The notes under the pieces were generated by a model. It saw nothing but the letters and a program-made list of their open reading frames with translations. It was not told where the DNA came from and did no database searches. Below, in pieces: positions 3-36,100 of a stretch of DNA of 64,000 nt (position 1 is its first letter; the number at the start of each line of letters is the position of its first letter). The stretch is taken from positions 310,001-374,000 of the forward strand of contig NZ_VLPL01000004.1 of assembly GCF_007558725.1 (NCBI RefSeq), written 5' to 3'. The position numbers and the translations under genes are program-made. This DNA comes from Fluviicola chungangensis (lineage in GTDB: Bacteria > Bacteroidota > Bacteroidia > Flavobacteriales_D > Crocinitomicaceae).

Positions 3-1160
3 CAAGACCTTTACTTGTTCGCTGTGATGCTAATAATCGGAATTGTTTTCGTAATTCTGTTTACGATTATTTACGGGCGGCTGTTTTGTGGCTGGTTCTG
101 TCCCCAGACTATTTTTATGGAGTTTGTTTTTCGGCGCATAGAGTACTGGATCGATGGCGACTGGACACAACAAAAGGCACTGGACAAACAAGCCTGGAAT
201 GCGCAAAAAATAGGAAAACGAATCCTGAAACACAGTCTTTTCTGGCTGATATCCTTTGTAATCGCGAATATTTTCCTGGCTTACATCATCGGAAGTCGCG
301 CCCTGCTTAAAATTATTACGGAACCTGTTCATCTGCATATCGGCGGATTGATTTCTATCGGGATATTCACCACCCTGTTTTACTTCGTTTTTTCGTGGTT
401 GCGTGAACAGGTGTGTACCACGATCTGTCCTTACGGACGGTTACAGGGAGTGCTCCTGGACCAAAACTCCATGGTGGTCGCATACGACTATGTACGCGGG
501 GAAACACGTGCTAAATTCAGAAAAGGAGAAGACAGGCCGAGTGCAAAAAAAGGCGATTGTATTGATTGTGCCCAATGCGTTCATGTTTGTCCGACCGGAA
601 TTGATATCCGGAACGGAACACAGTTGGAATGCGTAAACTGTACAGCATGTATCGATGCCTGTGACTCCATGATGGAAGGAGTCGGGCTGGAAAAAGGATT
701 AATCCGGTTCGTTTCGGAAAACGGGATCAAAAACCGCACGCGTTTCCAGTGGACCCGGAGAGTTATTTCCTACACGGTCTTGTTAATTATACTGATCGGA
801 GTTTGGATCACCATGCTGGTCATGCGGGAAGATTTCTCTACGACCATTTTACGCCAGCGCGGATCCACCTACCAGATCACACAGGAAAAAGACATCAGCA
901 ATATTTTTGAGATTGATCTGACGAACAAAACAAAGGAACTTTTCCATGTGAAACTGGTTTCCGCTGATCCTTCCGTAAAACTGGAACTGGCAAATGATTC
1001 ACTGGAACTTCCGGGACAGAAACATATCCGCGAACGTTTCCTGGCGCGTTTCCCTTACGGATTCATTGAAAAAGGAACCCGTAAAATTGACATCATCATC
1101 TTAGGGAACGGAAAAGAAATTGATCGCGTTAAAGTCAAGGTGATCGGACCAAGTTTTTAG
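3..1160 (+). CDS. ccoG: Cytochrome c oxidase accessory protein CcoG (5' end outside window)
   Basis: Membrane-bound polyferredoxin that helps mature cbb3-type cytochrome oxidase (family role: CcoG/RdxA/FixG, linked to copper handling for CcoN). The reading frame is open to the left edge, so the N-terminus, probably including the first membrane helix, is missing. The visible part has a hydrophobic segment followed by the motif GRLFCGWFCPQT, two further membrane helices, the loop CTTICPYGR, and two 4Fe-4S clusters (CIDCAQCVHVCP and CVNCTACIDAC). One more helix follows, then a periplasmic beta-rich tail. A FixH-like gene begins 20 bases downstream, as in typical ccoNOP-ccoGHIS clusters; the oxidase genes are presumably just upstream. 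Confidence 0.93.
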   Translation, partial: QDLYLFAVMLIIGIVFVILFTIIYGRLFCGWFCPQTIFMEFVFRRIEYWIDGDWTQQKALDKQAWNAQKIGKRILKHSLFWLISFVIANIFLAYIIGSRALLKIITEPVHLHIGGLISIGIFTTLFYFVFSWLREQVCTTICPYGRLQGVLLDQNSMVVAYDYVRGETRAKFRKGEDRPSAKKGDCIDCAQCVHVCPTGIDIRNGTQLECVNCTACIDACDSMMEGVGLEKGLIRFVSENGIKNRTRFQWTRRVISYTVLLIILIGVWITMLVMREDFSTTILRQRGSTYQITQEKDISNIFEIDLTNKTKELFHVKLVSADPSVKLELANDSLELPGQKHIRERFLARFPYGFIEKGTRKIDIIILGNGKEIDRVKVKVIGPSF

Positions 1161-3002: not shown

Positions 3003-3827
3003 TCAGGACCTGATTTCTTCAAACGCTTTCCCGAAATTGTTCAGTACATCCGTAATCAGCATGCTTTCCATACTCTGTTCGTTCAAGGTGATGTCTGCTG
3101 CCAGGCCATGAAGGTATACTCCTGTTTTTGCCGCAACATCCGGTGCGTATCCCTGTGCAATGAAAGAAGTAATTATCCCGGTTAATGCATCTCCCGATCC
3201 GCCTTTCGCCAATCCGGCATTTCCGGTAGTATTATAATACACTTCTTCGGCTGTGATGATCGCTGTTTCGGGTCCTTTCAGTACAATGACAATGTGGTAT
3301 TCACGGGCTTTATCCCTGGCTGTATTGATCCGTTCTTCCCGGTCCTTGTGCATACCGAAAAGCCGGTCGAACTCACACGAATGCGGCGTAATGATACTTT
3401 GTTCCGGAATACAGCTGAAGAGTTTTTTATTCTGGGAAATAATCGTCAGAGCATCTGCATCCAGTACCAGCGGAATCCGGGACTGAACCAGGACGGAAAC
3501 CAGCATTTCTTCGGAAACCTCATCCGTTCCGATCCCCGGACCGATCCCAATCCCGGAAAACCGATCCAGCGGATAATGGTCTTCTTCCCGCATAAACAAC
3601 ATTGCTTCCGGAACAGCAGTTTGCAAAATGAACCGTTCTTCGGCCGGAACACCAACGGTCAGTAAACCAACACCTGTCCGGGCCGCCGCCTTTGCTGCAA
3701 TAACAGCAGCTCCCATCATTCCTCTCCTTCCGGCCAGGATGAATGCGTGACCATAATCACTTTTATTGGACGTGGCCTCCCTGATTTTCAAACCTGCCTT
3801 TATGTAACTGTTCGTGAGTTTACCCAT
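3003..3827 (-). CDS. nnrD: ADP-dependent NAD(P)H-hydrate dehydratase
   Basis: Metabolite-repair enzyme that dehydrates damaged NAD(P)HX back to NAD(P)H using ADP. 274 residues covering only the ribokinase-like dehydratase domain; the NnrE epimerase domain, often fused at the N-terminus, is absent. Visible motifs are AGRRGMMGAAVIAAKAAART near residue 32, GIGIGPGIGTDE near residue 92, LDADAL, ITPHSCEF, and the catalytic GNAGLAKGGSGDALTGI loop near residue 205. It is the third gene of a minus-strand operon after a BON protein and a 124-residue protein (27-base gap), which places cofactor repair under the same low-oxygen-type operator. Confidence 0.9.
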   Translation of the reverse strand: MGKLTNSYIKAGLKIREATSNKSDYGHAFILAGRRGMMGAAVIAAKAAARTGVGLLTVGVPAEERFILQTAVPEAMLFMREEDHYPLDRFSGIGIGPGIGTDEVSEEMLVSVLVQSRIPLVLDADALTIISQNKKLFSCIPEQSIITPHSCEFDRLFGMHKDREERINTARDKAREYHIVIVLKGPETAIITAEEVYYNTTGNAGLAKGGSGDALTGIITSFIAQGYAPDVAAKTGVYLHGLAADITLNEQSMESMLITDVLNNFGKAFEEIRS

Positions 3828-3854: not shown

Positions 3855-4229
3855 TTAGAGATTAAAATGTTTTTTTACAAATGCATTTTTCTCATTTTCA
3901 GTCATTTTATCTGTTGACTGAAGAGCCATTTTCACCTGCTTAAAACGTTCTTCGTTTTTCAGGTAATGATGAAATTCCGATTTTGCATCCGTTGGACCGA
4001 AAAGCAACACTTGTTCGTAACCGGCAGCCTGATCGGCAATGGCTTTAAAATAAACCTCCTGTAACTGCTGTTCTTTGTGGTGCATATGCTTTTCGCCTTT
4101 CTTTAGCGCTTCTTCTTTTACGACCGGTGAAAATTCCGATTCAATGGTCCGGGCTTTCTTATGTCCCGGATCGATCAGATCTGCAGAGGAATAATCCATC
4201 CAGATCCCAAGGTGTTTCTTTGATTTCAT
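3855..4229 (-). CDS. Conserved hypothetical protein, 124 residues (eRF1-like fold suspected)
   Basis: Soluble protein starting MKSKKHLGIWMDYSSADLID; a longer frame begins at 4277 but the internal Met fits better because the extra 16 residues read as non-coding. The pattern IWMDYSSA...LI, a Lys/Glu-rich middle, and YEQVLLFGPTDAKSEFHHYL resembles small stress-associated proteins distantly like the eRF1/host-attachment fold. That relation is inference; function unknown. It sits between a BON protein (60-base gap upstream) and nnrD (27-base gap), in one operon. Confidence 0.7.
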   Translation of the reverse strand: MKSKKHLGIWMDYSSADLIDPGHKKARTIESEFSPVVKEEALKKGEKHMHHKEQQLQEVYFKAIADQAAGYEQVLLFGPTDAKSEFHHYLKNEERFKQVKMALQSTDKMTENEKNAFVKKHFNL

Positions 4230-4289: not shown

Positions 4290-4961
4290 TCAGTCAATCA
4301 CGGCATATTCGTAATCCACTTCCAATTCGTTGTCTACATGCCAGATTCCGGGTGTTTTCCAGGCAATGCGTCCCGCTTCTTCTTTTTGGTAGAGGGAAGC
4401 GACCGTACCGGTAAGTTTCACTGTTCGACCCTGTACATGCACCCGGATGTCCTTATCATTTACAGCCCAACTGCGGTGAAGTGCGGCTTCGATTGCCCTT
4501 TGCTCAATGTCGTCATTCAGTTCGGATCTGATCTTTAAATGATTGAATACTCCGCGTACTCCCGTGATATGTTCAATGGAACGTTTAGCAGCTTCCCGTT
4601 GAAAATCCCAATGAACTTCACCATCCAATGTAACCCAACCGTTCTCTACCTTTGCCTGAATCTTTTCATCCGGGACCAGCAGGTCCGTTCTTAAAGAAAA
4701 AAGAACGTCTTCGGCAATATCCCCATCATCCTTTTTTTGAGAATTGGCAAACTTCACCTCCAATTCTTCCACAAGGGCCTTTACTCCGATAACGCTTTTG
4801 GCAGCTTTCTCTGCCTGCAGTTTTTTGGCATAATTATCTACCGTACCTGTCAGCGTCACAATCCCATCCTTCACAATAACCCCGATTTCCGCAGCCTTTA
4901 ATAAAGGTTCCCACTTAATGGTGTCCTGAACATCCTTTTGTAATTGTTCATTTGTTTTCAT
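4290..4961 (-). CDS. Triple BON-domain protein
   Basis: 223-residue protein made of three consecutive BON domains (about residues 5-72, 78-148 and 152-220), each showing the V.NG.VTL.G.V / A...V.GV pattern. No signal peptide is visible when started at MKTNEQLQKDVQ (4961). The longer frame from 5036 would place the operator-containing promoter inside the gene, so the shorter start is chosen. BON domains are thought to bind phospholipid or interfaces, and cytosolic triple-BON proteins of this type are stress-induced. A close paralogue lies at 7502-8185. First gene of the operon BON / 124-residue protein / nnrD. Confidence 0.88.
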   Translation of the reverse strand: MKTNEQLQKDVQDTIKWEPLLKAAEIGVIVKDGIVTLTGTVDNYAKKLQAEKAAKSVIGVKALVEELEVKFANSQKKDDGDIAEDVLFSLRTDLLVPDEKIQAKVENGWVTLDGEVHWDFQREAAKRSIEHITGVRGVFNHLKIRSELNDDIEQRAIEAALHRSWAVNDKDIRVHVQGRTVKLTGTVASLYQKEEAGRIAWKTPGIWHVDNELEVDYEYAVID

Positions 4962-5029
4962 GATTCTTTCAATTAAGATTACATGACAAAGAAACCCAAT
5001 CAGCCGGCCGGAAGAAATGAGCTCACTCA

Positions 5030-5072
5030 CAAACACTTATGACATTTCACAGGATCGTTTTGACCTCCGTCA
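5030..5072 (-). promoter_or_regulatory. Promoter with Crp/Fnr-type operator for the BON-nnrD operon
   Basis: Perfect palindrome TGAC-CTCC-GTCA at 5061-5072, centre 5066.5. A weak -7 box, AGTGTTTG on the minus strand (5030-5037), is centred 33 bp away, the same distance seen at the four other promoters of the region. A half-matching TGACATTTCACA lies at 5040-5051. The site overlaps the space just after the regulator gene. Confidence 0.6.
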
Positions 5073-5075
5073 CCA

Positions 5076-6134
5076 TCAGTTTTTCATTCCCACCAGCTTA
5101 TTGTAATCCAGGATGGTAATCGTGCTTCCTGAAATCTCGATGTATCTGTCTTCCTTAAAATCACTGAGGGTACGGATCACTGTTTCTTTGGCGGTCCCGA
5201 CCAGGTTGGCCAGGTCTTCCCGGGAAACATTCATACTGAATCGCTGATCCACATCGTTCTTATAGGTATCCGACAATTTTACCAAAGCTTCGGCCACCCG
5301 TTTTCTTACGGAATTGTAAGCCAGGCGCATCAGCTGTTGTTCGTTTTCGAGCAGGTTATCAGAAAGCAGTTCAATGAATTTCCGCGCGACTTCCGCATTC
5401 TTGTAGATGAGTGAAAAGAAATCGTCTTTGGGAATCATATAGATCTCGGAATCTTCGAGTGCAGCTGCGGAGTGAATATACTGTTCGTCTTTGAGAAGCG
5501 ATAAAAAACCAAAGAAATCGCCTGCTTTGTGCAAACTGCTGATCAGTTCTTTCCCCTGGTCATTCTTCTGGTATATTTTTACTTTTCCCTTATGAATAAA
5601 ATAGATTCCCCTGGGATAACCACCCTCGAGAAAAACAGTATCCTTTTTTTTGTAATGTCTCAGTTCCCGCGATTCGGACAATTCTTTCAGTGCTTCAAAA
5701 CTTTTGACTTCTTCCAAAAAATGGTTGACTCCTTCCATGTTCCTGGTAAATTGTTTTTTCAGGATATCTGTTTTATTCAGCCGTGTTTCGATGGCACTAA
5801 GCAATTCCTGGTCGGTGAACGGCTTGGTCAGGTAATCATCGGCGCCCATCGACATTCCTTTCCGCACATCTCCCCGATCCGCTTTAGCTGTCAGGAAAAT
5901 GAACGGAATTCCGGCTGTCGTCTCATTTTTAGACAACAGGTGGAGCACTCCGTACCCGTCCAGGACGGGCATCATGATATCACAAATGATCAGGTCGGGA
6001 AGTTCTTTGAGAGCCAGTTGCACTCCTTCTTTTCCATTTTCAGCGGTCAATACCTGGTATTGCGCCAGATCCAGGATTTCTGCCGTATTTTCACGGATAT
6101 CCGGATTATCTTCAATGAGCAGTATCTTTTTCAT
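5076..6134 (-). CDS. Response regulator fused to a Crp/Fnr sensor and DNA-binding module
   Basis: 352-residue regulator with three parts. A receiver domain (1-120) has phosphoacceptor Asp52 in DLIICDIMMP, Thr82 and Lys104 (YLTKPF). A cyclic-nucleotide-binding-like domain (about 150-270, HYKKKDTVFLEGGYPRGIYF) has no clear cysteine cluster, so it is not a standard FNR iron-sulfur sensor. A Crp-type winged helix (about 285-347) has recognition helix GTAKETVIRTLSDF, keeping the Glu and Arg used by FNR/CRP but with Ile where FNR has Ser. It follows its kinase by 10 bases in one operon. It is the best local candidate to bind the TGAC-N4-GTCA sites, including those before its own operon (inference). 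Confidence 0.92.
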   Translation of the reverse strand: MKKILLIEDNPDIRENTAEILDLAQYQVLTAENGKEGVQLALKELPDLIICDIMMPVLDGYGVLHLLSKNETTAGIPFIFLTAKADRGDVRKGMSMGADDYLTKPFTDQELLSAIETRLNKTDILKKQFTRNMEGVNHFLEEVKSFEALKELSESRELRHYKKKDTVFLEGGYPRGIYFIHKGKVKIYQKNDQGKELISSLHKAGDFFGFLSLLKDEQYIHSAAALEDSEIYMIPKDDFFSLIYKNAEVARKFIELLSDNLLENEQQLMRLAYNSVRKRVAEALVKLSDTYKNDVDQRFSMNVSREDLANLVGTAKETVIRTLSDFKEDRYIEISGSTITILDYNKLVGMKN

Positions 6135-6144
6135 AGGTATGTAT

Positions 6145-7347
6145 TTAACGTGGAATGACCAACTTTACGGTCGTTCCTTTATTTTGGGTACTTTCAATCG
6201 TGACATTCCCGTCCATAAGCTCTGCATACCGCGCAACGATATTCAGTCCCAAGCCGGTTCCCTGTATGTGAGTTGCGTTTCCGCCGCGGAAGAATCGCTC
6301 GAAAAGGTGTTGCTGATCCTCTTCGCTGATACCGATCCCATGATCTTTGACCCAAATGGCAATAGCCTGTTCGCTGACTAGTGCATGTAATTCGATCGCA
6401 GATTCTTCGGGAGAAAATTTAATGGCATTCGAAATTAAATTGAACAGGATGTTCCGGAGTAATTTGGCATCCAGCAGCACTTCCTCTTCACCTGAATAAT
6501 ACTGATCGATGTGTTGTTTCTCTCCTAACATGCCCTGCATTTCAGAGTCGATATCCCGCAGGAACTGCCGAAGGTTTATTTCTTCCGGCATATTGTGGAC
6601 CTTGCCTTCTTCCAGTTTGGAAACAGAAAGAAAATCGTTCAGAATGTCCGTGAGGTTCACAATGGATTTTTCGATTTTACGAATGTGTTTTGCATGATTT
6701 TCCGGATCATTCCGTTCGTTGTACCTGCTTACCAGCGAAAGGGATGACATCATAGTCGTAAGCGGAGTACGGAATTCATGAGAAGCCATCGAAACGAAGC
6801 GCGATTTCATTTCATTCAGCTCCTTCTCTTTCGCCAAAGAAGCATCGAGTTCTTTTTGGGTCCGCTCCAGTTCTTTGATTGCTTCCTCCAGCACAAGCGT
6901 CCTGTTTTTCACCTGTCTTTCAAGGTCTTCCGAATAATTGCGAAGATTTCTTTCTGCTTCTTTCCGAAGGGTGATATCTACTATAAAGGCGATCACGAAG
7001 GTTCCTTCGACCGTCTTGTAAGGACTTAGGCTGATTTCAACCGGAAATTCGGAACCGTCTTTTTTCAGTCCGAATAATTCCATCCCCAACCCCATGGCTC
7101 TTGCATGCGGATGGTGAACATAATTCGCCCTGTTATTCTCATGTTTATGGGTAAATCTGGAGGGCACAAGTGCTTCAATTTTTACCCCGTTCAATTCGCC
7201 CGGACTGTAGCCAAATAGTTTTTCAGCACTTGGGTTAATTCGTGTAATCAGTCCTTCTGCATTCGTCACCAGGATTCCTTCGGTCGCGTGTAAAAACAAC
7301 GCGTCGATTCCTTCTTTGCTTTCCATTCTTTTACGTTGGTATTCCAT
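6145..7347 (-). CDS. Soluble PAS-domain histidine kinase
   Basis: 400 residues, no membrane segments. One PAS domain (about 15-128) is followed by a coiled coil (130-180), then HisKA with phosphoacceptor His190 in SMASHEFRTPL, and an HATPase_c domain with N box (LFNLISNAIKF), G1 (DHGIGIS), F box and G2 (GTGLGLNIV). In the PAS domain, VPSRFTHKHENN and HHPHARAMGLG align by eye with the FixL segment carrying the haem-ligand His, but the FixL distal Arg is Met here and this pattern is common in non-haem PAS domains, so the ligand is open. It phosphorylates, presumably, the receiver-Crp regulator encoded 10 bases downstream. Confidence 0.92.
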   Translation of the reverse strand: MEYQRKRMESKEGIDALFLHATEGILVTNAEGLITRINPSAEKLFGYSPGELNGVKIEALVPSRFTHKHENNRANYVHHPHARAMGLGMELFGLKKDGSEFPVEISLSPYKTVEGTFVIAFIVDITLRKEAERNLRNYSEDLERQVKNRTLVLEEAIKELERTQKELDASLAKEKELNEMKSRFVSMASHEFRTPLTTMMSSLSLVSRYNERNDPENHAKHIRKIEKSIVNLTDILNDFLSVSKLEEGKVHNMPEEINLRQFLRDIDSEMQGMLGEKQHIDQYYSGEEEVLLDAKLLRNILFNLISNAIKFSPEESAIELHALVSEQAIAIWVKDHGIGISEEDQQHLFERFFRGGNATHIQGTGLGLNIVARYAELMDGNVTIESTQNKGTTVKLVIPR

Positions 7348-7375
7348 AACGAATATACACTTTTTGACCGGGTAT

Positions 7376-7440
7376 CAAAAGTAAAAGTTGTGTCAGGCGA
7401 ATTAGATGACTTTCGTCATCTTTGTTGCTGACAGTGGTCA
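7376..7440 (-). promoter_or_regulatory. Tandem-operator promoter of the kinase/regulator operon
   Basis: Two perfect palindromes: TGAC-TTTC-GTCA (7407-7418, extended to GATGAC/GTCATC) and TGAC-AGTG-GTCA (7429-7440), centres 22 bp apart. A consensus Bacteroidota -7 box, TACTTTTG on the minus strand (7376-7383), is centred 33 bp from the nearer site, placing that site near -41 where class II Crp/Fnr activators bind. The start codon is at 7347. Confidence 0.75.
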
Positions 7441-7456
7441 TACAGGCACGCAAAGA

Positions 7457-7479
7457 AGCACCCTCCTAAGAAGGGTGCT
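7457..7479 (-). terminator. Terminator after the second BON gene
   Basis: Perfect 8-bp stem AGCACCCT / AGGGTGCT with a 7-base loop; on the minus strand it is followed by TTCTTTG. It ends the transcript of the BON gene at 7502-8185. The T-tract is weak. Confidence 0.55.
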
Positions 7480-7501
7480 CCCTGTAACTCAAAACCTGGT
7501 C

Positions 7502-8185
7502 TTACAATTCTCTGCCCAGTTCCGCATATGAGGGAATTCTCACCTCAATGTTATTTTCCACAGCAGCAACTCCCGGCGCCTTCCAAACTACCTGTTCCGC
7601 TTCCCTTTTTTCAGAGTACGAACGCACTTTTCCAGTCAAAATTACCTTGTCCCCCACATTTTCTATGTGGATTCCATTTGCATCAATCGATGCACTTCGT
7701 TCAAAAGCCGCAACGATTTTCTTTTTGACATCGGCAGGATTCAACTTCGGAGTTACTTTCACCAGGTTACTGATTCCTTTTACTCCGGTAATGGACGCAA
7801 GGACATCCCGAACCGCATGTTGTTCGTAGGCCCAATCTACCATTCCTTCTGCTGTGACCCATCCATTCTCAACCTTTACTTTGTTTTTATCCGAAGGAAC
7901 GAGCACATTCCATTTCAGGGCATTTACTGCCGCATCTGCCAATTCGGTGTCTGTTCTCTGATCGTGGTAGCTCAGCTTAATCACAATATCTTCTGCAATT
8001 CCTTTGACTCCGGCCACTTTCAGGGCAGCTTTTTCAGCTATTTTCTTTTCCTGGTAGGTATCTACCGTTCCTGAAAGAGTAACCACCCCGTTTTTCACAG
8101 CAACACCGATCTCCGATGAATGGATCGCAGGTTCCCAGTTCAACTCTTCCATGACATGTTTTTGTATTTCAGCATCTGTTTTCAT
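7502..8185 (-). CDS. Triple BON-domain protein (second copy)
   Basis: 227 residues with three BON repeats (about 4-72, 77-147 and 152-220), each with the VKNGVVTLSGTV-type strand pair and an ITGVKG or VAGVKG turn. No signal peptide. Clearly a paralogue of the protein at 4290-4961, with the same start pattern (MKT-D/N-x-Q-x-x-K) and the same EVENGWVT-type motif in repeat two. It is monocistronic, ends at the hairpin at 7457-7479, and is read divergently from the DoxX/universal-stress operon. The promoter carries its own pair of Crp/Fnr-type sites. Stress-induced envelope or lipid-associated role suspected from the family. Confidence 0.88.
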   Translation of the reverse strand: MKTDAEIQKHVMEELNWEPAIHSSEIGVAVKNGVVTLSGTVDTYQEKKIAEKAALKVAGVKGIAEDIVIKLSYHDQRTDTELADAAVNALKWNVLVPSDKNKVKVENGWVTAEGMVDWAYEQHAVRDVLASITGVKGISNLVKVTPKLNPADVKKKIVAAFERSASIDANGIHIENVGDKVILTGKVRSYSEKREAEQVVWKAPGVAAVENNIEVRIPSYAELGREL

Positions 8186-8211
8186 ACTCAGCGAATTAAA
8201 AGTTTATACCA

Positions 8212-8276
8212 CAAAGATCCCATTTGAAAAGGCAATGGAGAATGACGGTGGTCACTGCGCAACCTGAAAAAACTCA
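8212..8276 (-). promoter_or_regulatory. Tandem-operator promoter of the second BON gene
   Basis: Near site TGAC-GGTG-GTCA (8243-8254) and weaker upstream site TGAA-AAAA-CTCA (8265-8276), centres 22 bp apart. The -7 box is GATCTTTG on the minus strand (8212-8219), centred 33 bp from the near site. Same geometry as at 7376-7440. Confidence 0.68.
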
Positions 8277-8277
8277 T

Positions 8278-8342
8278 TGATATACATCATCCCGGATCAT
8301 GACGCGCCTCATTTCCATTCGCTCCGATCCGCCCTAATTTTG
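8278..8342 (+). promoter_or_regulatory. Tandem-operator promoter of the DoxX/USP/Hsp20 operon
   Basis: Upstream site TGAT-ATAC-ATCA (8278-8289, close to the FNR consensus TTGAT-N4-ATCAA) and near site TGAC-GCGC-CTCA (8300-8311), centres 22 bp apart. Consensus -7 box TAATTTTG (8335-8342), centred 33 bp from the near site. It supports the start codon at 8361 rather than the longer frame from 8277, which would run through the promoter. Confidence 0.68.
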
Positions 8343-8360
8343 TCAGAAATACAAATCCAT

Positions 8361-8786
8361 ATGGAACTGATCGAACAATATCATACTGTCTCAGCAATCA
8401 CGATCGCACGTGTATTCCTGGGCTTTCTTTTTCTTTTCCAGGGATACGATGCAATTGTCAATATCGGGATGAAAACCGTTATCAATACGTACCAGGAGCG
8501 ATTCGTAAATAAAGGAATCCCCCGGTTACTGACATCCGTGGCTGCGGTATTTACTTCCTACACCGAATTGGTCTGCGGAACACTGCTGATCTTCGGACTT
8601 TTTGAATTCCCGGCACTTTACCTGCTCGGTGTAAACCTGATTATAGCTGGGATCGGTTTCGGAATGAATGAGCCGCTTTGGGATACACGCAATGTATTCC
8701 TACGTTTGGCGCTGCTTCTTTTTCTTGTAATGACTCCCCCGGAATGGCATGGTTTCTCATTGGATCACTTGTTCTTCCGATCATAA
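8361..8786 (+). CDS. DoxX family membrane protein
   Basis: 141 residues, four predicted membrane helices, DoxX-like: ARVFLGFLFLFQGYDAIVNI at the start of helix one, then a conserved FTSYTELVCGTLLIFGLF segment in the middle. DoxX-family proteins are small integral membrane proteins, some linked to quinone or thiol redox stress; the precise role here is unknown. Start chosen at 8361, downstream of a consensus -7 box. First gene of an operon with a universal stress protein 11 bases downstream. Confidence 0.82.
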   Translation: MELIEQYHTVSAITIARVFLGFLFLFQGYDAIVNIGMKTVINTYQERFVNKGIPRLLTSVAAVFTSYTELVCGTLLIFGLFEFPALYLLGVNLIIAGIGFGMNEPLWDTRNVFLRLALLLFLVMTPPEWHGFSLDHLFFRS

Positions 8787-8797
8787 AACTATTCGAC

Positions 8798-9619
8798 ATG
8801 AAAAAAATACTCGTCCCCACAGATTTCTCAAAGTCGTCTCACAACGCCTTAAATTATGCGGTTGAACTGGCAAGGGAAACCGGAGCAGAACTCTATCTGC
8901 TGCATGTTTACTCCATTCCGGTCTTTGCAGAGGATTCCGTACTTATAACAACGGAAGAATTTTTGAAAGAAGATGCCCTGTCGAACCTGGAAGATTTGAA
9001 GCAGCCGATTGACCAATCGAATCCGGAACTAACAATTACTTACACGACTTTACCCGGAACAGCTGTCGAAATCATTCAGGAGTATGCCAAAAAGCAACAC
9101 ATCGATCTGATCGTGATGGGCAGCCAGGGAGTTGGATACTTACAGGAGCGGATACTAGGCAGTACGACTTCAACACTTATTCGCAAAACCAGCATCCCGG
9201 TAATGGTCATCGACAAAAAGGTCAAATTCCGGAAACCGAAAAATATTGTTCTTGCTGTTGATTTTTCAGAAACGGATAACGAAACCATTCTGAAGCCCTT
9301 GAAACAACTGACGAAAACGTTTCAATCGCACATTTGTGTCCTGAACGTATTCACCGAGGCAGAGATCATCCCGACATTCAGCGAAATTGCGGAAAGCTTC
9401 CGCATCGAAAAGGCATTGAAGCACACTTACCATACTTTTTTTGAGGTGGAGCATCCCGATGTGGTTACCGGAATTAATGACTTTGTCAAAAAACATCACA
9501 TAGACCTGGTAACGGTTATTTCCCGGGATCATTCCCTGATCGGACGCATCTTCCGGGAACCGGTTTCCAAAGCAATGTCTTTCCACAGCCTCACTCCATT
9601 ATTAATTCTCCACGAGTAA
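8798..9619 (+). CDS. Double-domain universal stress protein
   Basis: 273 residues, two tandem UspA folds (about 1-140 and 145-273). The first begins MKKILVPTDFSKSSHNALNY and keeps the ATP-binding loop pattern G-2x-G-9x-G-S/T (GSQGVGYLQERILGST, about residues 107-122). The second lacks that loop (VISRDHSLIGRIFREP), suggesting one nucleotide site per chain. Started at MKKIL, which follows the DoxX stop by 11 bases; a longer in-frame extension overlaps DoxX and is rejected. It belongs to the Crp/Fnr-type regulon proposed here. USPs of this kind are induced by oxygen limitation or growth arrest in other bacteria. Confidence 0.93.
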   Translation: MKKILVPTDFSKSSHNALNYAVELARETGAELYLLHVYSIPVFAEDSVLITTEEFLKEDALSNLEDLKQPIDQSNPELTITYTTLPGTAVEIIQEYAKKQHIDLIVMGSQGVGYLQERILGSTTSTLIRKTSIPVMVIDKKVKFRKPKNIVLAVDFSETDNETILKPLKQLTKTFQSHICVLNVFTEAEIIPTFSEIAESFRIEKALKHTYHTFFEVEHPDVVTGINDFVKKHHIDLVTVISRDHSLIGRIFREPVSKAMSFHSLTPLLILHE

Positions 9620-9636
9620 AACTAATTCCGAGTCAA

Positions 9637-10041
9637 ATGAAAATAACTATCAACGACCAGCAAAGCATTTCACAAATCCGTGATTCGTTTAATCAGGCAT
9701 TTCCTTTTCTGAAACTGGAATTTTTTTCGAAGAGACATGAATCAGGACAGGCCTCTCCGCTTCAGTTTTTGATCCGGAAAGATGTAACACTGAAAGAATG
9801 CCGCACCGTCCACCATTCGGGTGAAATATCCATTACTCCCGAGATGAAGGTCAGTGAACTGGAACAGCTTCTTTGGACCGGTTTCGGATTGGGTGTACAG
9901 GTATTCCGAAAATCCGGGAATGTTTGGCTGGAAACCATTTTAACCGATACCTGGACCCTGGCGGAACAAAATGCGGAGGGGGAGTTCCTGAGTAAAGGAA
10001 TCGAACCCGACGAGCCTGAATATTACCAGGACCGCAATTGA
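9637..10041 (+). CDS. Conserved hypothetical protein, 134 residues
   Basis: Soluble acidic protein starting MKITINDQQSISQIRDSFN. Contains an alpha/beta pattern with a conserved-looking FPFLKLEFFSKRHESGQASP segment and EISITPEMKVSELEQLLW, then VQVFRKSGNVWLETI. I recognise it as a type found beside universal stress genes in Bacteroidota but know no function. It lies 17 bases after the USP gene and 34 before hsp20, so it is co-transcribed with both. Confidence 0.7.
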   Translation: MKITINDQQSISQIRDSFNQAFPFLKLEFFSKRHESGQASPLQFLIRKDVTLKECRTVHHSGEISITPEMKVSELEQLLWTGFGLGVQVFRKSGNVWLETILTDTWTLAEQNAEGEFLSKGIEPDEPEYYQDRN

Positions 10042-10075
10042 TACAGCATGTATGTTTAACCTTAAATAATGAGTT

Positions 10076-10513
10076 ATGAAACCAGAAAAAACATCCAAAA
10101 ATGAAGAGCTGACAGCTCCAAACTGGTCTGATTTCTTTACAGACCGCATCTTTTCGAACCGATGGCCATTTCATGGAATGAGTTTGTTCCCGGCAGTAAA
10201 CATCAAAGAAAGTGATGAAGCATTTCATACCGAAATGGCAGTTCCCGGATTTTCCAAAAAGGATTTTAAGATTGATGTAGAAGGATCCAATCTCACCATC
10301 AGTGCCGATAAGGAACATGAAACGGAGGAATCGAACGAACATTACACCAAGAAGGAATTTGAACGGAAATCGTTCTCCCGGACCTTTAACCTTCCAGAGA
10401 ACGTCAACGAAGACAAAATTGAAGCCGTTTACAAGGAAGGAATGCTTCAGCTGACGATCCCCAAAAAGGAAAAAACAAAACCAACCCTTAAGAAAAAGAT
10501 AACCATTTCCTAG
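10076..10513 (+). CDS. Hsp20/alpha-crystallin small heat shock protein
   Basis: 145-residue ATP-independent holdase chaperone. N-terminal arm (1-40) has the SLFPAVNIKESDEAF start of the alpha-crystallin domain; the domain (about 42-135) shows AVPGFSKKDFKIDVEGSNLT, the Y..KEF.R.SF.R.F.LPENV signature and AVYKEGMLQLTIPKKE. The C-terminal extension is Lys-rich and lacks an obvious IxI motif. Last gene of the DoxX operon; followed directly by a strong intrinsic terminator at 10523-10547. No CIRCE-like element is seen, so control is probably through the operon promoter. Confidence 0.95.
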   Translation: MKPEKTSKNEELTAPNWSDFFTDRIFSNRWPFHGMSLFPAVNIKESDEAFHTEMAVPGFSKKDFKIDVEGSNLTISADKEHETEESNEHYTKKEFERKSFSRTFNLPENVNEDKIEAVYKEGMLQLTIPKKEKTKPTLKKKITIS

Positions 10514-10522
10514 ATTGATTCA

Positions 10523-10547
10523 CTGCCCGGTAACTCCGGGCAGTTTT
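10523..10547 (+). terminator. Intrinsic terminator after hsp20
   Basis: Perfect 8-bp GC-rich stem CTGCCCGG / CCGGGCAG with loop TAACT, followed by TTTT. It lies 10 bases after the hsp20 stop codon and separates it from the next operon. Confidence 0.88.
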
Positions 10548-10634
10548 CGTATAAAACCACTCTGTCGCAGTTATCCCGGTAGTCATTACCGGAGCAATAA
10601 ACCCCAGCAAACAATTTAAAGCACATCCGAATAG

Positions 10635-10699
10635 TGATAAAAGTCACCCGTTGGAGAGATGGCAGTCATTCGTTTGGAACAGGTGATGCCCTAGTTTTG
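10635..10699 (+). promoter_or_regulatory. Tandem-operator promoter of the ATP-cone nuclease/RNase operon
   Basis: Upstream site TGAT-AAAA-GTCA (10635-10646) and weaker near site AGAT-GGCA-GTCA (10657-10668), centres 22 bp apart. Consensus -7 box TAGTTTTG (10692-10699), centred 33 bp from the near site; start codon at 10725. Identical spacing to the promoters at 7376-7440, 8212-8276 and 8278-8342. Confidence 0.68.
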
Positions 10700-10724: not shown

Positions 10725-11525
10725 ATGAAACAGGTTAAGATCGTTCGAAGACTTTCATGGCTTATTGCGGCATTGATTTGCCTGACAAGCTGGCAAGGCC
10801 TGGTTTCACCCGAAACTTACATCAAAGAAACCGAACTGTGGGCCGCCCAGGCAAGAGGACAAGACCTGATCAACCTGTACATCATCCCATTCTATCTCCT
10901 GAGTGTTTTATTGATTGACCGGAAGGAAAAGTACTTCGCGTTAATCTGGACCGGGATCAGTTGCTACTTTATCTATACGTTCCTCATTTACTGTTTTGAC
11001 ATCCAGTTTAACCGCCTGTTCCTTTTGTATGTATTCATACTCGGACTAAGCTGTTACTCCCTGTTCTTTCTGTTGTATTCGAACAGGAACACGATCCGGG
11101 TTTCCGGGGAAAACTCCTTTCTGCATCAGCTTACCGGGGGATATTTTATCTTTACGGCCGTTTTGTTCTATGGCGCTTGGCTTGCTGCTATCATACCGGC
11201 AAACCTGCTCAACAACATGCCACCCGACCTGGAAATGCTTCCCACCAACCCGGTTCATGTATTGGATCTTTCCATCGTTCTTCCTGGGATTTTTATCGGC
11301 GGGGTCCTGCTGATCCGAAACAAAAAGCCGGGTTATTTTCTGGCTCCCGTCATCCTTACTTTTTCATTATTGATGCAGCTGACCATCGGCGTGCTGATGC
11401 TCTTTTTAACGGATCATGGACAAAACACTCCGGTTGCGCTCATCTGGTTTATTTTTTCCCTCTCACTGATCAGCCTCATCCTTCTTCTTTCCCTGCTCAA
11501 AACGAATCACGCAGACTATGAATAA
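10725..11525 (+). CDS. Unknown multi-pass membrane protein
   Basis: 266 residues, about seven predicted membrane helices, with a periplasmic or cytoplasmic loop (SPETYIKETELWAAQARGQD) after the first helix and a proline-rich loop near residue 165. No family recognised; it is not an obvious transporter or sensor. It heads a tight four-gene operon and its last 8 bases overlap the next start codon. The promoter architecture ties it to the stress regulon. Confidence 0.75.
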   Translation: MKQVKIVRRLSWLIAALICLTSWQGLVSPETYIKETELWAAQARGQDLINLYIIPFYLLSVLLIDRKEKYFALIWTGISCYFIYTFLIYCFDIQFNRLFLLYVFILGLSCYSLFFLLYSNRNTIRVSGENSFLHQLTGGYFIFTAVLFYGAWLAAIIPANLLNNMPPDLEMLPTNPVHVLDLSIVLPGIFIGGVLLIRNKKPGYFLAPVILTFSLLMQLTIGVLMLFLTDHGQNTPVALIWFIFSLSLISLILLLSLLKTNHADYE

Positions 11526-12387
11526 TGAATTTACAATAACGAAAGCCTCCGGGGAAAAAAGTCCCTTTTCAGAGGAAAAAGTGCGTGCTTCGCTGCGCAG
11601 ATCGGGAGCAGACAATGAACAGATCGAATTCATTCTCCAGGAAATCCGGAACCAGCTTTACGACGGGATGACCACCCGCAATATCTATAAGATCGCCTTC
11701 GCACTGCTCAAATCGGGTTCAAGGCATCAGGCTGCCCGGTACCATTTGAAATATGCCATCATGGAGCTCGGCCCTTCCGGTTTTCCTTTTGAAAAATACG
11801 TAGCAGAACTTTTAAAGAAAGAAGGATACCGGACAAAAACCGGCCAGATCCTGCAAGGAAAATGTGTGACTCATGAGATCGATATCCTGGCGGAAAAAGA
11901 TTCCGAACAACTGTTGATCGAATGCAAATACCACAACCAGCCCGGGATTTCCTGTAATGTAAAAATCCCGCTCTATATTCACGCCCGGTTTAATGACATC
12001 GAGGCACACTTACTCAAAAAAGGTGTACACCCGGCAAAGCAACGAAAAGGCTTGATCGTCACAAACACCCGTTTTACCGAGGACGCGATCCAATATGCCG
12101 GCTGCTCGGGACTCCGGTTGATGGGATGGGCACATCCGTTCGGAAAAGGATTGAAAGACAAAATCGATCACTACGGACTGTATCCCATAACGTGTCTGAC
12201 TTCACTGACCGTTGCCGAAAAACAAAAATTACTGGGCATGGAAATCGTCTTGTGCAGCGAACTGCTAAACAAAACGGAATTACTGAAGTCCATCGGGATA
12301 AAAACGATCCGTGCGGCAACAGTGCTGAACGAAGTAAACAACCTTTGCGGACATCCGCCCTATCACCCGATTCATCAAACGCATTAA
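11518..12387 (+). CDS. ATP-cone domain fused to PD-(D/E)XK (Mrr-like) nuclease
   Basis: 289 residues. Residues about 4-85 form an ATP-cone (ITKASGEKSPFSEEKVRASL ... TTRNIYKIAFALLKSGS), the nucleotide-sensing module best known from ribonucleotide reductase and NrdR. Residues about 88-210 form a PD-(D/E)XK endonuclease-like fold: Glu92 in FEKYVAELL, then HEIDILAEKD (Asp122) and LLIECKYHNQ (Glu135, Lys137). All expected catalytic residues are present. An extra helical C-terminus follows. DNA or RNA cleavage gated by dATP/ATP is inference. Overlaps the preceding gene by 8 bases and is followed after 14 bases by a beta-CASP RNase gene. Confidence 0.85.
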   Translation: MNNEFTITKASGEKSPFSEEKVRASLRRSGADNEQIEFILQEIRNQLYDGMTTRNIYKIAFALLKSGSRHQAARYHLKYAIMELGPSGFPFEKYVAELLKKEGYRTKTGQILQGKCVTHEIDILAEKDSEQLLIECKYHNQPGISCNVKIPLYIHARFNDIEAHLLKKGVHPAKQRKGLIVTNTRFTEDAIQYAGCSGLRLMGWAHPFGKGLKDKIDHYGLYPITCLTSLTVAEKQKLLGMEIVLCSELLNKTELLKSIGIKTIRAATVLNEVNNLCGHPPYHPIHQTH

Positions 12388-30117: not shown

Positions 30118-33100
30118 TCAGTTCTTCACAATTCGTTCGATGGAAGTACCTGCATCTGTTTTAATTCTTAGAGTATAAACTCCTCGTTCGTAAGCACTCA
30201 AGTCAACCGGATCTCCCGACTTAATCTGAGTTGTTTGAACCAGCTTACCTTGTACATCCATTACTTCAACAACAGCTGAAGCAGCATCCATTGTTATGAT
30301 AACCACATCGTGTGTTGGATTCGGATGAACGGAAATGATAGAAATCAAGTGTTCTTTGATTCCAACATTCGCAATAGTCACGCAATTGGAGGTATCCGAA
30401 CATGTTCCGTTTGACACCACTACCGCATAAGTCCCGTTAGCAGCTGGAGCAAATGTTTGTGCCGTTGCACCTGCAATCGGTGTATTTGTTGTACAGTTAA
30501 TCCACTGGTAAGTTGTACCTGCAGAAGCTGTAATCGTAGCATCCCCGTTATCTGTTGCCGTTGCAACGAATGGAGTAATTGTTAGATCCAAAGTAATGAT
30601 CGAATCACACCCTATTGCATTCGAAATGGTATCATTATACATTCCCGAGGTGGTATAAGTCATTCCGTTTTGAGCCCAAGTATATGCAGGACTACAAGTT
30701 GAAACCGTAAGCATAGAAGATGTTGGCATATTGATCGTCAGGTCTAAAGTGATAACTGAGTCACAACCTACTGAGTTTGAAATAGTATCCGTATACATAC
30801 CGGAAGCTGTATAAGTCATTCCATTTTGCGCCCACGTATAAGATGAACATTCTGTTACAGAGACAGAAGATGCAGAAGGCTGATTGATGATTAAGTTCAA
30901 TGTTATAACCGAATCACAACCGAACATATTCGTGATTGTATCTGTGTAAGCACCGGAAGCCGCATAAGTCATTCCATTCTGAGCCCATGTATAAGATGAA
31001 CATTCCATTACAGAAACAGAAGATGCAGAAGGACCTCCAATTGTCAGGTTCAACGTAATCACCGAATCACAGCCTAATGCATTCGTTAAAACCCCTGTAT
31101 ACACTCCTGAAGTAGTATATGTAGTATTGTTAACCGGCCAGGTATATGTTTGACAAGCCATTTGGTTTACCGTCGCTGACGTCGGATTATTGATCGTTAA
31201 GTTCAATGTAATGACCGAATCACAACCTAATGCATTCGAAATGGTAGCTGTATGCGTTCCTGAAGCAGTATATGTTGCGTTGTTGATCGGCCAGGTATAG
31301 CTACCACAAGCTGTTTGAGTTACCGTAGCAGCCGTACTGTTATTAATTGTCAGGTTTAATGTGATGGTGGAATCACAACCCACAGCATTCGATACAACAG
31401 CTGTGTATGCTCCCGAACTGGTATACGTTGAATTGTTTTGAGCCCAGGTATACGAATCACAAGCTGTTACGGTAACCGACGAACTTGAAGGTTGGTTTAC
31501 TGTCACTGCAACAGAAGCTGTAGAAGTACAGCCTGCTCCGTTAGTTGCAGTAATTGTATATGTTGTAGAAACAGTTGGAGCTACCCCTGTAGGATTCTGA
31601 GAACTTGAAGTGAAACCTGCCGGAGATGAAGTCCAAGCTAAACTTAAACCACTGGTACCAGTAAGGTTTACATCATCAATAATCCAATAATATCCCCAAG
31701 CAGAAACATAATTGAATCTGATACGCATATTCGGCTGATTCAAATATGGAGCAGTTAAAGCAATACTTTCGTTAGCTGGTACCTGAGCCAAATCCGTAAC
31801 CACTCCCTGGCTTCCCAATGGCAAATAATCTTTCAATGTGGACCATGTAGTCCCCCCATCTGTAGAAATTTCCAATCTCACAAGACTATCCCCCGAATTC
31901 CACTTACGGTACAAGTTTTGGAACGTTAGTGTTCCCGAAGTCATTCCTGCCGTACTGAATACAGGTGACACCAAAGTAGTTCTGGTCTTGTTACCGGAAG
32001 ATCCCATATCAGCATTCGACATGGCAAATCCTCCTCCATTCGGAGTTGCAAAATTCGAGAAGTATGTTGTATAGGAATATGGTGCATTCTGAATGCCAAA
32101 CCCTGTAGTTGCAGGTGCAGTTCCATTATACGTTGTTGTCCATGTACCTAAACCAGAGTTGAAATCCTGGATCAAAGGAGAAACAGTTGTAGGCAAAGAT
32201 GATGTAAGATTCACCAACTCTCCGTTGCAAATAGAATTATCAGAAACACCTGCAGTATTTGCCGCCGGATTCGCATTCACAGTTACAGAAACTGTATTTG
32301 TAGTTACACACCCGCCATCTACAGCTGTTACAGTATAGGTATAAGATCCTACAACTGTTGGAGTAATTGTAACCGGGTTTCCTGCAACCGGAGTTTCAGC
32401 ACCACTTCCCGCGGTACTTACCCAAGAGTAAGTATAGTTTTGCACTGGAGTTGGATTCGTATTCGCAGCAGTAAGATTTACAGAACCATTCAAACAAATA
32501 GCAGCAGCAGAAGTTGAAGCTGAAATAGCATCCGGTGTTGAAACTGTTACTGTAACCGGCACCCGTGCACTTTCACACCCCGTAACAGTATTCAATTCGC
32601 TTACATAGAATGTAGCTGTAGCTGAGATTGCCGTTGTATAAGTTGTTGAAGTACCTGATTGAAGAACAGTTCCTGCAACTGCCGCATCATACCACATAAA
32701 TGTTGGAGTTGGCAAACCACTTGTAGAAGTTACAGAAGCTGTTGGAACCTGTGTACCACACTGTGTAGAGTTTGCTGCAATCGGAGTTGAAGGAAGCGGG
32801 TTAACCGTTACCGTCACTGTTGGCGAAGGAGAAACGGAACAACCAGCAGCTGTAATTGTTGCCGTATAAGTAGTTGTTGCAGTCGGAGAAACCGTTAGAG
32901 GGTTTGTTGTTCCAACCGTTCCAACTCCGTCTGACCAGGAAACAGATGTTACTGCAGGCGCCTTGTTACCGGCAATCGTAAATGCCGGACGTGTACTTGT
33001 CGTTGTATTAGAGCTTGTACCCATACAAGCTTGGCCTGAAGATACAGCTGTAAATAAACAAGAAGCAGATGCATTATCAGCATATATTGCAAGGGATGAA

Positions 33101-36100
33101 ATAAAGGCTACCGATGCATCAGTAGTCACTGTAGAGCTGCTTCCCCCCGTATTAACATTTGAATAATTAAATGAAATGACAATATTAGACACACCATCCC
33201 AATTGAATGGAGTGGAGAACACATAATTATTCGTTCCCGTAGTCAATGTTTGAGCCGCATTTGAATAAACCTGAGTAAGCCCACTTACAATTGCTGTATT
33301 TGCTACAGCTGCATTTTGCGCAGTATGTCCTACATTGATGGTGAATGAGTTCATTGTTGTTGTACCTAAACTAGTAATATTTAGAGACAATGAAGTAATA
33401 TTTCCTGCGCTTAATCCCATTGCTGTCAATTCAGACGCACGATAAATATACTGCGTTTTAACCCCTCCATAACCATGATAGAAAGGAGAAATTCCTGATG
33501 ATGATGAAGTCCCTGAAGCATTACCGGTAACTACAGTTCCGGTTTTAATTAGGGATGCCGTTAAATTCGTTGATGAAGACACACAAATCGACGATGAAGA
33601 TGCAGTTGCTCCTGCGGTACTTCCGAATAACGGATCATCAAAATAAGTTGTTCCTGTATAACCGCTGTTAATCCCTAGAGAATTTGTTGCAGCAACTCCC
33701 CATGCAATTGTTGCATTGGATGGTGTTGGAACAGGAATCGTTCCTTCCCAGGTAGATCCGGAAACGTTCGTCATAACAATATTCGTTTGTGGAACACCAT
33801 TTACAGAATATCCGATAGTAGCTCCCGTTATTGTTCCTGCAGAAGTTGTAATATTTACAGAAACCAGACGAGCAGTTGCAACACATTGAGTGGTTGTTGG
33901 TGGTGTAACCGAATTCAAAGTAATAACCGGTGCCGGCGTGGTCCCTGCAAATTCATAAGCCCCCATATCAGGAGTAGCCGGACGAGTTGTACCTGTAAAG
34001 TCTGTTGTAATGGAAGGCGATGCAACTGGACTTGCCCCTCCTTCAACCTGCGTTACGATTCCGGCAACCGGGCGCAAAAAGTCAGAACTTGAACCTGTCA
34101 AGCTAATAAAGAAATTTCCTGCAGTTCCGTAACCTGCCCCCGTAAATGCAGCTTCACCTGTAATTGAATTTGCATCTCTAGGAGCAACAGCTGCCTGGTA
34201 AGAAAGCAAAGTCTGGTAAGATGTTGTTCCATCATACATAATCAAACGGGTCGCTGATGGCGTTCCTGCATAAAACAAATTACGGTTCGAAGTAGAAGCA
34301 TAATTATTCAATGCAACCCCGGAACGACGGAAAGCAACTGCAATTCCAGTACCAACAGGAGTTGTTTCATTGACAATGATATTATTTCGCATGTCTAATG
34401 CAGCTATTGTCGCAGTTGCATTTACCTGATGGTAGATCCCGGATGTTCCAAAGTTTGCTCCGGAAGAAGTTCCGCTCAGGTAAACCGAATTGTAATAAAC
34501 ACCATAAACAGCACCAGTTGAAGAAGAGTTAATATTAATTCCTCTGATAACATCAGTACCACTTGCAACCGGAGCTGTCAATCCGCTGATAATGTTATTC
34601 GATACATTTACGCCTGCACCACTAGTGATACTGACACCAAAAACTGTACCTCCGGCATTTGAGGAAGAAAGCGTGTAAATACGATTAGCATTGACATTGG
34701 TCATTGTCCCTCCGGAAATACCTATAGCACTTACCAAGCTCGCTCCGGTTGAAGACAATCCGTGGATATCATTGTTTGAAATGTTAACTACCGGTGAAGT
34801 ATTTGAAGAAGTAATTCCAACAACAGCTCCCCCAGTCCCGGTCGAAGACAATCCAAAAATCGTATTGGAAGTAACATTCAACGGATTAGCAGTATTTAAT
34901 GAAGCATTAATACTCATTCCCGTTACGGAACCCTGTCCCGTGACATTGGTAAATGTATTCCCTGAAATTGCTGATATCCCATTGAAATAACTAACATTCA
35001 ACAACGTAATTGATGAAGTACCTCCTGTCAGGTTATTAATCGTATTTCCGGTAATACTCTTAGTGCTTGTTCCGCTACCAGTACCATCCGTATTATTAAA
35101 ACCGGTGAAAGTAGTCCCTCCGGTTAAATTAATATTCGAGAAATTATTATTTGCATAGGTAGCCGTTGTCCCATTCTGAGAAGAACCATTTGTAGTCGTT
35201 AATGTTACTGTTCCACCCGCACCCGATTTCGTAAACTGAGTTCCAATGGTATTATTGGAAATTGTTGTAGAACCACCAGACGGAATCGTGAAAGAATGAG
35301 ATACAAAAGTAACACTTCCGGTAGTTGTAACAGTCAGGTTATTAAAACTGTTGTTACTAATTGTTGTGGTTAAGTTTGTACTCACAGTAGAAATGAACGT
35401 CAAAGTACCCGTTGGAGAAGCCACGCTGTGTCCAAAACCATTAAATTGGTTATTTGACATATCCAGTGTCGAAGTGGCAGAAGCAGATCCTGAAGGAGAA
35501 GTAATCCCCACAACAGATCCTCCTACAGCAGCTGACAATAAATTAAATGTATTATTTGAAAATACTTGTGAAAAGGTTCCTGTTGGAGTATTGGAAAATG
35601 CCTGAAGCTGAATTCCATTCAAAGTACCCGCAGTCACCGTTCCATTGCTGGCAAGAGTATTATAGGAACAATTTGTATTTTTTACGTTACGAACTAAAAT
35701 TCCGTTAACGGTTCCGGAAACACTACTAAAACCAGAAAATGTGCCGGTTAATCCGAAGGTAATTGAGTTCCCATCTCCGGACGCACCCCCGATTGTCAAA
35801 CCGGATGCATGATCAGCCGCCGCAGTAGGCCCTAAAACTACAATCCCCAAGTTAACTGATGAAATCGTGTTTCTCCTAATAGTCAAATTGTTATTATTAC
35901 CAGTAGTAGCAGTTGCCCCAGTAGTCATATTAGTTGCATTGTGAGTGGAATTTGCATAAATACCCATCGCATTCTGATACGTTGCACCCAAGCTAATGGT
36001 GTTGTCCGTTATAGTAACATTTTGACACCCGTCAGTGGTTGTATTATAAAACAATGCAATCCCAAACTCGGTCATGTTATTTGACGCAGCAGCAGTTGTT

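Follow-up and report, generated by a model that had tools for sequence, protein, structure and literature searches.

Which protein acts on the palindromes that recur ahead of the BON, DoxX and nuclease genes in a 64,000-nucleotide stretch of Fluviicola chungangensis (contig NZ_VLPL01000004.1, positions 310,001 to 374,000; hereafter the window, from whose first letter positions are counted), and which signal would it carry? An earlier note on this DNA had proposed a coherent regulon of FNR-type, class II-like promoters. Here we report that the promoter layout, two palindromes 22 base pairs (bp) apart followed at a fixed distance by a -7 box, is real and widespread. We consider it probable that the paired palindromes are sites for two CRP/FNR-type dimers, mainly of a protein in which a receiver domain is fused to a CRP-type regulator (REC-CRP), which would act under a FixL-like kinase in a low-oxygen programme.

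A strict double site at 22 bp

The earlier note had placed nine palindromes of the form TGAC-N4-GTCA in the window, and a readout of the sequence bears out every coordinate: four are perfect (5061, TGACCTCCGTCA; 7407, TGACTTTCGTCA; 7429, TGACAGTGGTCA; 8243, TGACGGTGGTCA), one has a single mismatch (10635, TGATAAAAGTCA), and four are weaker (8265, TGAAAAAACTCA; 8278, TGATATACATCA; 8300, TGACGCGCCTCA; 10657, AGATGGCAGTCA). The four promoters that it had described are likewise found where it had put them (Table 1). All four have the 22-bp pair spacing, and at each the nearer site lies 33 bp, centre to centre, from the -7 box, a fixed distance of the kind that marks class II CRP/FNR promoters. With at most one mismatch of 12 allowed, the window holds five pairs at spacing 22, while all 27 remaining spacings between 13 and 40 together give ten.

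The same layout recurs in a sample of loci around REC-CRP homologues, the best 80 of at least 587 relatives, which are related to each other. Pairs of the looser form TGA-N6-TCA are present in 49 of these 80 loci and number 100 at spacing 22 and 9 at spacing 23, with no more than 4 at each of the other spacings between 3 and 59. Counted as distinct pairs, 73 of the 100 have TTTG at +27 on one side or both (7 on both), whereas no other offset between 0 and 49 exceeds 7, and TANNTTTG lies at +23 for 47 of the 100. When the same data are counted by outward side on both strands, there are 80 pair-plus-TTTG matches in 45 of the 80 loci, or 67 per megabase near the gene, compared with a whole-genome mean of 3.5 per genome across 124 genomes with REC-CRP; ten dinucleotide shuffles of the loci gave none. 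The matches cluster in two places, ahead of the kinase gene and immediately behind the regulator gene. The promoter consensus reads TGAYaAaaRTCAt, ten bases, TGAy....sTCATt, then TAnnTTTG, and its box part is partly built in, as it was made from promoters picked for a good -7 box; in the per-strand counts (the 80 matches, 105 oriented promoters and the consensus) one pair may count on both sides.

Beyond these loci, the full pattern, a pair together with TANNTTTG and no more than 3 mismatches, has 20 matches in the Fluviicola genome against 4 in the reversed control, which was not split by mismatch number. Ten of the matches have at most 2 mismatches, namely the four window promoters, 4987-5051, two next to a gene for a universal stress protein (USP) that lies on the same contig, and a single match on each of C12, C15 and C16. 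In a class-wide survey of 247 genomes, 143 have the exact combination of pair and TTTG, and none has its reversed control. Cross-tabulations of the pattern against regulators were compiled by hand from the genome-scan tables. Genomes were taken as having REC-CRP at a best E of 3.5e-66 or below (124 genomes, the weakest being G155, cut by a contig end), so that 20 genomes whose best E lies between 5e-50 and 6e-41 fall in the group without it. The exact pattern occurs in 104 of the 124 genomes with clear REC-CRP and in 39 of the 123 others; within the 23 families that have both states (134 of the 247 genomes, relatedness below family level not corrected), the counts are 64 of 78 and 25 of 56.

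Comparison with a close relative, L016, revises the promoter at 5061. The earlier note had read a lone site 33 bp from a weak box, and the distance is indeed 33 bp, but that box (AGTGTTTG, 5030-5037) is not conserved in L016 and was rejected. In the orthologous region of L016, TGATTTTTGTCA, TGAGTAGTATCA and TGAGTAAGCTCA stand in tandem at 22-bp steps, followed by TTTCTTTG and a leader. The window has TTTCTTTG at 4987-4994, with box and following leader identical to L016, and 5061 is the outermost of three sites separated by steps of 21 and 22, the inner pair having 2 mismatches to the full pattern. The first gene behind this promoter differs, being a BON gene in the window and a homologue of 3855-4229 in L016.

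Two further exact palindromes (34692 and 36023) lie inside the open reading frame (ORF) 30118-36519, of 2133 aa, and are taken as chance. Elsewhere in the genome the palindrome TGACGTTTGTCA occurs three times at exact 58-bp steps (G000:C2:84558, 84616 and 84674; L010-L012), which has the look of a tandem repeat rather than of promoters.

The REC-CRP fusion and its PAS kinase

We take the REC-CRP fusion (gene at 5076-6134) to be the most likely main activator at the paired promoters of this genome. Its cNMP-binding fold followed by HTH_Crp, both above the Pfam cut-off, places it in the CRP/FNR superfamily, and its receiver has the features of a response regulator: the acidic pair, Asp52 and Lys104 are present in all 81 aligned sequences and Thr82 in 80, and a kinase partner is present. 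In the recognition helix, Glu317, Ile320 and Arg321 are found in 81 of 81. The three Cys columns that can be compared with those of standalone FNR-like proteins are occupied in 0, 0 and 16 of the 81 sequences, the N-terminal CxxC columns lying opposite the receiver and thus not being comparable. Pfam matches only Response_reg, cNMP_binding and the Crp HTH, with no LuxR/GerE-type HTH found in the fusion, and none of the best 25 of 103 NCBIfam matches for the regulator or the best 25 of 85 for the kinase reaches its cut-off. A structure model of the whole regulator has a predicted TM-score of 0.39, and the domain arrangement is not fixed by it.

The gene for a soluble PAS histidine kinase lies directly upstream of REC-CRP in 74 of the 80 loci. 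Searched against PDB sequences at 1e-3, its PAS domain has 14 matches, all of them FixL (7), DosP/EcDOS (6) or 10jx, and in Foldseek searches with a model of the domain the best PDB matches are haem PAS domains, 10jx being titled 'heme binding PAS domain'. His69 of the kinase aligns with the FixL His, which is the haem-holding residue, and is present in 57 of 75 aligned kinases. This likeness suggests that the PAS domain may be a haem-type oxygen sensor. Since the promoter of the regulator and kinase genes is itself paired, autoregulation is predicted.

In the mechanism that we propose, the soluble kinase would sense low oxygen through haem bound to its FixL-like PAS domain and phosphorylate the receiver domain of REC-CRP, which would then fill both sites and bring RNA polymerase to promoters of the TAnnTTTG type, among them its own. 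The proximal dimer would occupy the place of a -33 element, at about -41 relative to the start, with the other dimer two helical turns upstream; 22 bp corresponds to two turns of the helix, so that two dimers would lie on one face of the DNA. By analogy with DevR, the dimers may cooperate through their receiver domains. The predicted output comprises cbb3 oxidase and its assembly, hemN, and the protective proteins USP, Hsp20, BON and DoxX.

Some loci stand apart. Those of Runella and Dyadobacter (L049, L050, L054, L059-L067) have REC-CRP and a kinase with its His, yet no pair in the stretch examined. L041 perhaps has another system of this type: its paired promoters at 3995 and 5475 precede ORFs with weaker likeness to REC-CRP (33%) and to the kinase (29%).

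Genes behind the promoters

Across the 105 oriented promoters with an ORF behind them in the 80 loci, the first gene encodes the kinase in 20, DoxX in 15, USP in 15, a member of the 9637 family in 13, the 3855 family in 2 (one promoter counted twice), a REC-CRP-like protein in 2, Hsp20 in 2 and BON in 1. The remaining 35 include CcoNO (10), a CcoI-like ATPase (7) and, by Pfam, one ScdA/RIC-like protein and one cytochrome c. On the contig just before the window lie genes for Hsp20, USP, HemN, a P-type ATPase, CcoNO, a FixP-type cytochrome and CcoG. CcoNO is preceded by a pair with three mismatches, and the rhizobial fix genes form a set like this one. Single sites with an exact box number 12 in the Fluviicola genome and 0 in its control, and they precede, among others, genes for ferrochelatase, HemN, a globin, USP, a thioredoxin-like protein, a DUF983 protein, homogentisate dioxygenase, DoxX and the kinase; behind one of the 12 no ORF was found. 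The regulon that the earlier note had drawn (BON, nnrD, DoxX, USP, Hsp20 and the nuclease/RNase operon) is supported as a coherent gene set, but the predicted regulon extends past the window and takes in cbb3 oxidase, hemN, ferrochelatase and a globin. From this gene set and the FixL-like PAS domain, we infer low oxygen as the signal.

Table 1 Promoters and genes of the system in the window, with the sites, -7 boxes and domain matches of each
Feature	Position	Strand	Details
Paired promoter, kinase and regulator genes	7376..7440	-	sites 7429-7440, 7407-7418; box TACTTTTG 7376-7383; 0 mismatches to full pattern
Paired promoter, BON gene 7502-8185	8212..8276	-	sites 8265-8276, 8243-8254; box GATCTTTG 8212-8219; 1 mismatch; conserved in L016
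Paired promoter, DoxX-USP-9637-Hsp20 run	8278..8342	+	sites 8278-8289, 8300-8311; box TAATTTTG 8335-8342; 0 mismatches; conserved in L016
Paired promoter, run of 10725 membrane protein, Mrr-type nuclease and beta-CASP RNase	10635..10699	+	sites 10635-10646, 10657-10668; box TAGTTTTG 10692-10699; 1 mismatch
Corrected promoter, run of BON (4290-4961), 3855-4229 and NnrD	4987..5072	-	sites 5061-5072, 5040-5051, 5018-5029; box 4987-4994
REC-cNMP-HTH_Crp fusion, 352 aa, proposed activator of the paired promoters	5076..6134	-	Pfam Response_reg 4-116, cNMP_binding 159-243, HTH_Crp_2 278-347
Soluble PAS-HisKA-HATPase histidine kinase, FixL-like PAS	6145..7347	-	Pfam; PDB matches
Three-BON-domain protein	7502..8185	-	Pfam
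Three-BON-domain protein	4290..4961	-	Pfam
NAD(P)H-hydrate dehydratase (NnrD)	3003..3827	-	Pfam PF01256
DoxX protein	8361..8786	+	Pfam
Double universal stress protein	8798..9619	+	Pfam
9637 family	9637..10041	+	no Pfam match; homologues directly after 13 of 105 paired promoters; good candidate for a low-oxygen-linked function
Hsp20 chaperone	10076..10513	+	Pfam
End of CcoG/FixG; the cbb3 run, which starts before the window, is seen up to this gene	15..1160	+	Pfam FixG_C

In the beta-CASP RNase run behind its paired promoter, the gene at 11518-12387 joins an ATP-cone domain to the Mrr-type nuclease domain. Proteins of about 127 aa that open with …YTQHNEN/YKQHEEN… also lie behind paired promoters (G000:C15:139507, which is L152, and L044, L051 and L052); the one of the Fluviicola genome has no Pfam match.

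Competing readings and known systems

Three CRP-type proteins of the Fluviicola genome pass the Pfam cut-off, and its FNR-like protein (G000:C18; 230 aa, with an N-terminal CxxC and further Cys) is the main competitor for the sites. To place it we used standalone CRP proteins from ten genomes, which are this one and nine chosen for having pairs without clear REC-CRP. In a tree of 55 proteins, the CRP parts of 33 fusions form one group (99/97) that adjoins 12 FNR-like proteins (92/90). Of these 12 FNR-like proteins, 11 have the recognition-helix Glu, 10 the Ile and all the Arg; all have the CxxC, and each of three more Cys columns is filled in 10 to 12 of them. In ten other CRP proteins the position of the Ile holds Ser or Thr. 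That the sites belong to the FNR-like protein as an iron-sulphur oxygen sensor, with the kinase and REC-CRP genes merely its targets, is in our judgement unlikely. Such an owner would suit the common Glu-x-x-Ile-Arg helix and the best NCBIfam match of the protein, which is Fnr although below cut-off, and pairs are found in 29 of 50 genomes with a strict FNR-like protein (best E of 1e-42 or below) and no REC-CRP; but they are also found in 69 of 87 REC-CRP genomes without a strict FNR-like match, or 62 of 80 under a wider definition that adds 19 genomes with weaker standalone matches, and they are dense around the REC-CRP gene. Genomes with both regulators have the pattern in 35 of 37 cases and those with neither in 10 of 73. 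Since the counts for REC-CRP alone and FNR-like alone are 69/87 and 29/50, REC-CRP appears to suffice for the paired layout, and the FNR-like protein can probably use it, sharing part of the sites and above all the single ones. The regulon idea of the earlier note thus survives in its layout and gene set, which stand above reversed and shuffled controls, whereas plain FNR as sole owner has become less likely than the fusion.

With the Cys columns present in the FNR-like group and mostly absent from the fusion, an exchange of inputs fits the sequences, with a putative iron-sulphur sensor in the one and receiver plus kinase in the other. A more specific version, which we put forward tentatively and hold to be somewhat doubtful, is a phosphorylation-gated dimer of dimers: the receivers of neighbouring REC-CRP dimers would touch only at 22 bp, the FixL-FixJ-FixK cascade would be collapsed into a one-protein cooperative switch, and evolution would have swapped the iron-sulphur input for a kinase input while the DNA code and layout were kept.

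Several observations weigh against two dimers, mainly of REC-CRP, as the general explanation. No nearby pair is found in 31 of the 80 REC-CRP loci, and the exact pattern is missing in 20 of the 124 REC-CRP genomes, one of them (G191) from the same family as Fluviicola; conversely, 29 of the 39 genomes that have it without clear REC-CRP are among the 50 with an FNR-like protein. Lower down, the Foldseek list for the PAS domain also holds LOV and other PAS proteins, and 18 of the 75 kinases are without the His stretch. As 9 of these 18 loci have pairs, the signal need not be haem everywhere, and the His-less kinases possibly respond to something else.

The single 12-mer, with at most one mismatch, is at chance level in the window (25 found, 22.7 expected), and the exact 12-mer is not enriched in the whole genome (36 against 43 for the reversed control). 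These counts would agree with short palindromes of an AT-rich genome that had simply been arranged by eye, a reading to which we give practically no weight: the spacing peak (100 against 9), TTTG at +27 and the recurrence in 143 of 247 genomes all rise above reversed and shuffled controls that give 0. Of the genome scan for the 12-mer and its spacing that the earlier note had suggested as a check, the 12-mer alone came out negative and the 22-bp arrangement positive (20 against 4; 143 of 247 against 0). The 12-mer was rejected as a regulon marker, and it is the pairing, not the bare 12-mer, that marks the regulon. It is also quite improbable that both proteins use the sites about equally and that one palindrome per promoter works, the other being a leftover or a repressor site. 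The single-site form, present in 199 of the 247 genomes (about 21 genomes have one control match each) and at the 12 exact-box sites described above, would agree with one working palindrome, but a 22-bp spacing is too strict for a leftover. A REC-CRP fusion that fills both sites is the reading we retain, and its parts can be set beside known regulators.

FNR shares with the fusion the CRP/FNR fold and the Glu and Arg of the recognition helix, and its class II site lies near -41, as is predicted here; it has Ser where the fusion has Ile. Unlike FNR, the fusion is without the conserved iron-sulphur Cys, its half-site is TGA rather than TTGAT, and its sites are paired. The closest solved relative of its CRP part is the Crp/Fnr family structure 2gau (E 4.1e-27), a 232-residue chain without a receiver domain. 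USP and Hsp20 belong to the DevR/DosR regulon as well. In DevR/DosR, a response regulator linked to hypoxia, the receiver is needed for cooperative binding to adjacent sites and the proximal site overlaps the -35 element, according to PMC3029386; the DNA-binding domain described there is of NarL type, in contrast to the CRP domain here. PMC1274295 gives wyTTGACnnnnGTCAArw as the consensus of HcpR in delta-proteobacteria, which contains the TGAC-N4-GTCA core but has hcp/frdX as its predicted targets. The Bacteroides HcpR2 motif given there is GTAACnnnnGTTAC, and HcpR2 was rejected as binder because this motif differs. Among the matches listed in open-licence literature, whose titles and abstract openings were covered, there is no account of the fusion or of the 22-bp layout in Bacteroidota, which does not prove absence.

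The nearest parallel is FixL-FixJ-FixK. In rhizobia FixL signals through FixJ to fixK, as published abstracts state, and TTGANCNNGATCAANG is given as the FixK/FnrN consensus in PMC4999443. The two systems share a haem-PAS-like kinase, a receiver and output of CRP/FNR type, and the gene set of each includes cbb3 oxidase (fixNOP), fixG, a fixI-like ATPase and hemN. Here, unlike there, receiver and CRP form one 352-aa chain rather than separate FixJ and FixK, so that one step is missing, and the sites are paired at 22 bp. If our reading is correct, it predicts a low-oxygen switch for many Bacteroidota with a simple, searchable promoter code, would explain the joint switching of cbb3 oxidase, haem synthesis and stress proteins, and would offer a test case for the exchange of a sensor with the DNA code kept. 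Its parts are known ones in a new arrangement, namely a receiver-bearing activator of CRP/FNR type, a kinase like FixL and a double site of strict spacing; together they would amount to a condensed form of the oxygen-response cascade found in nitrogen-fixing bacteria.

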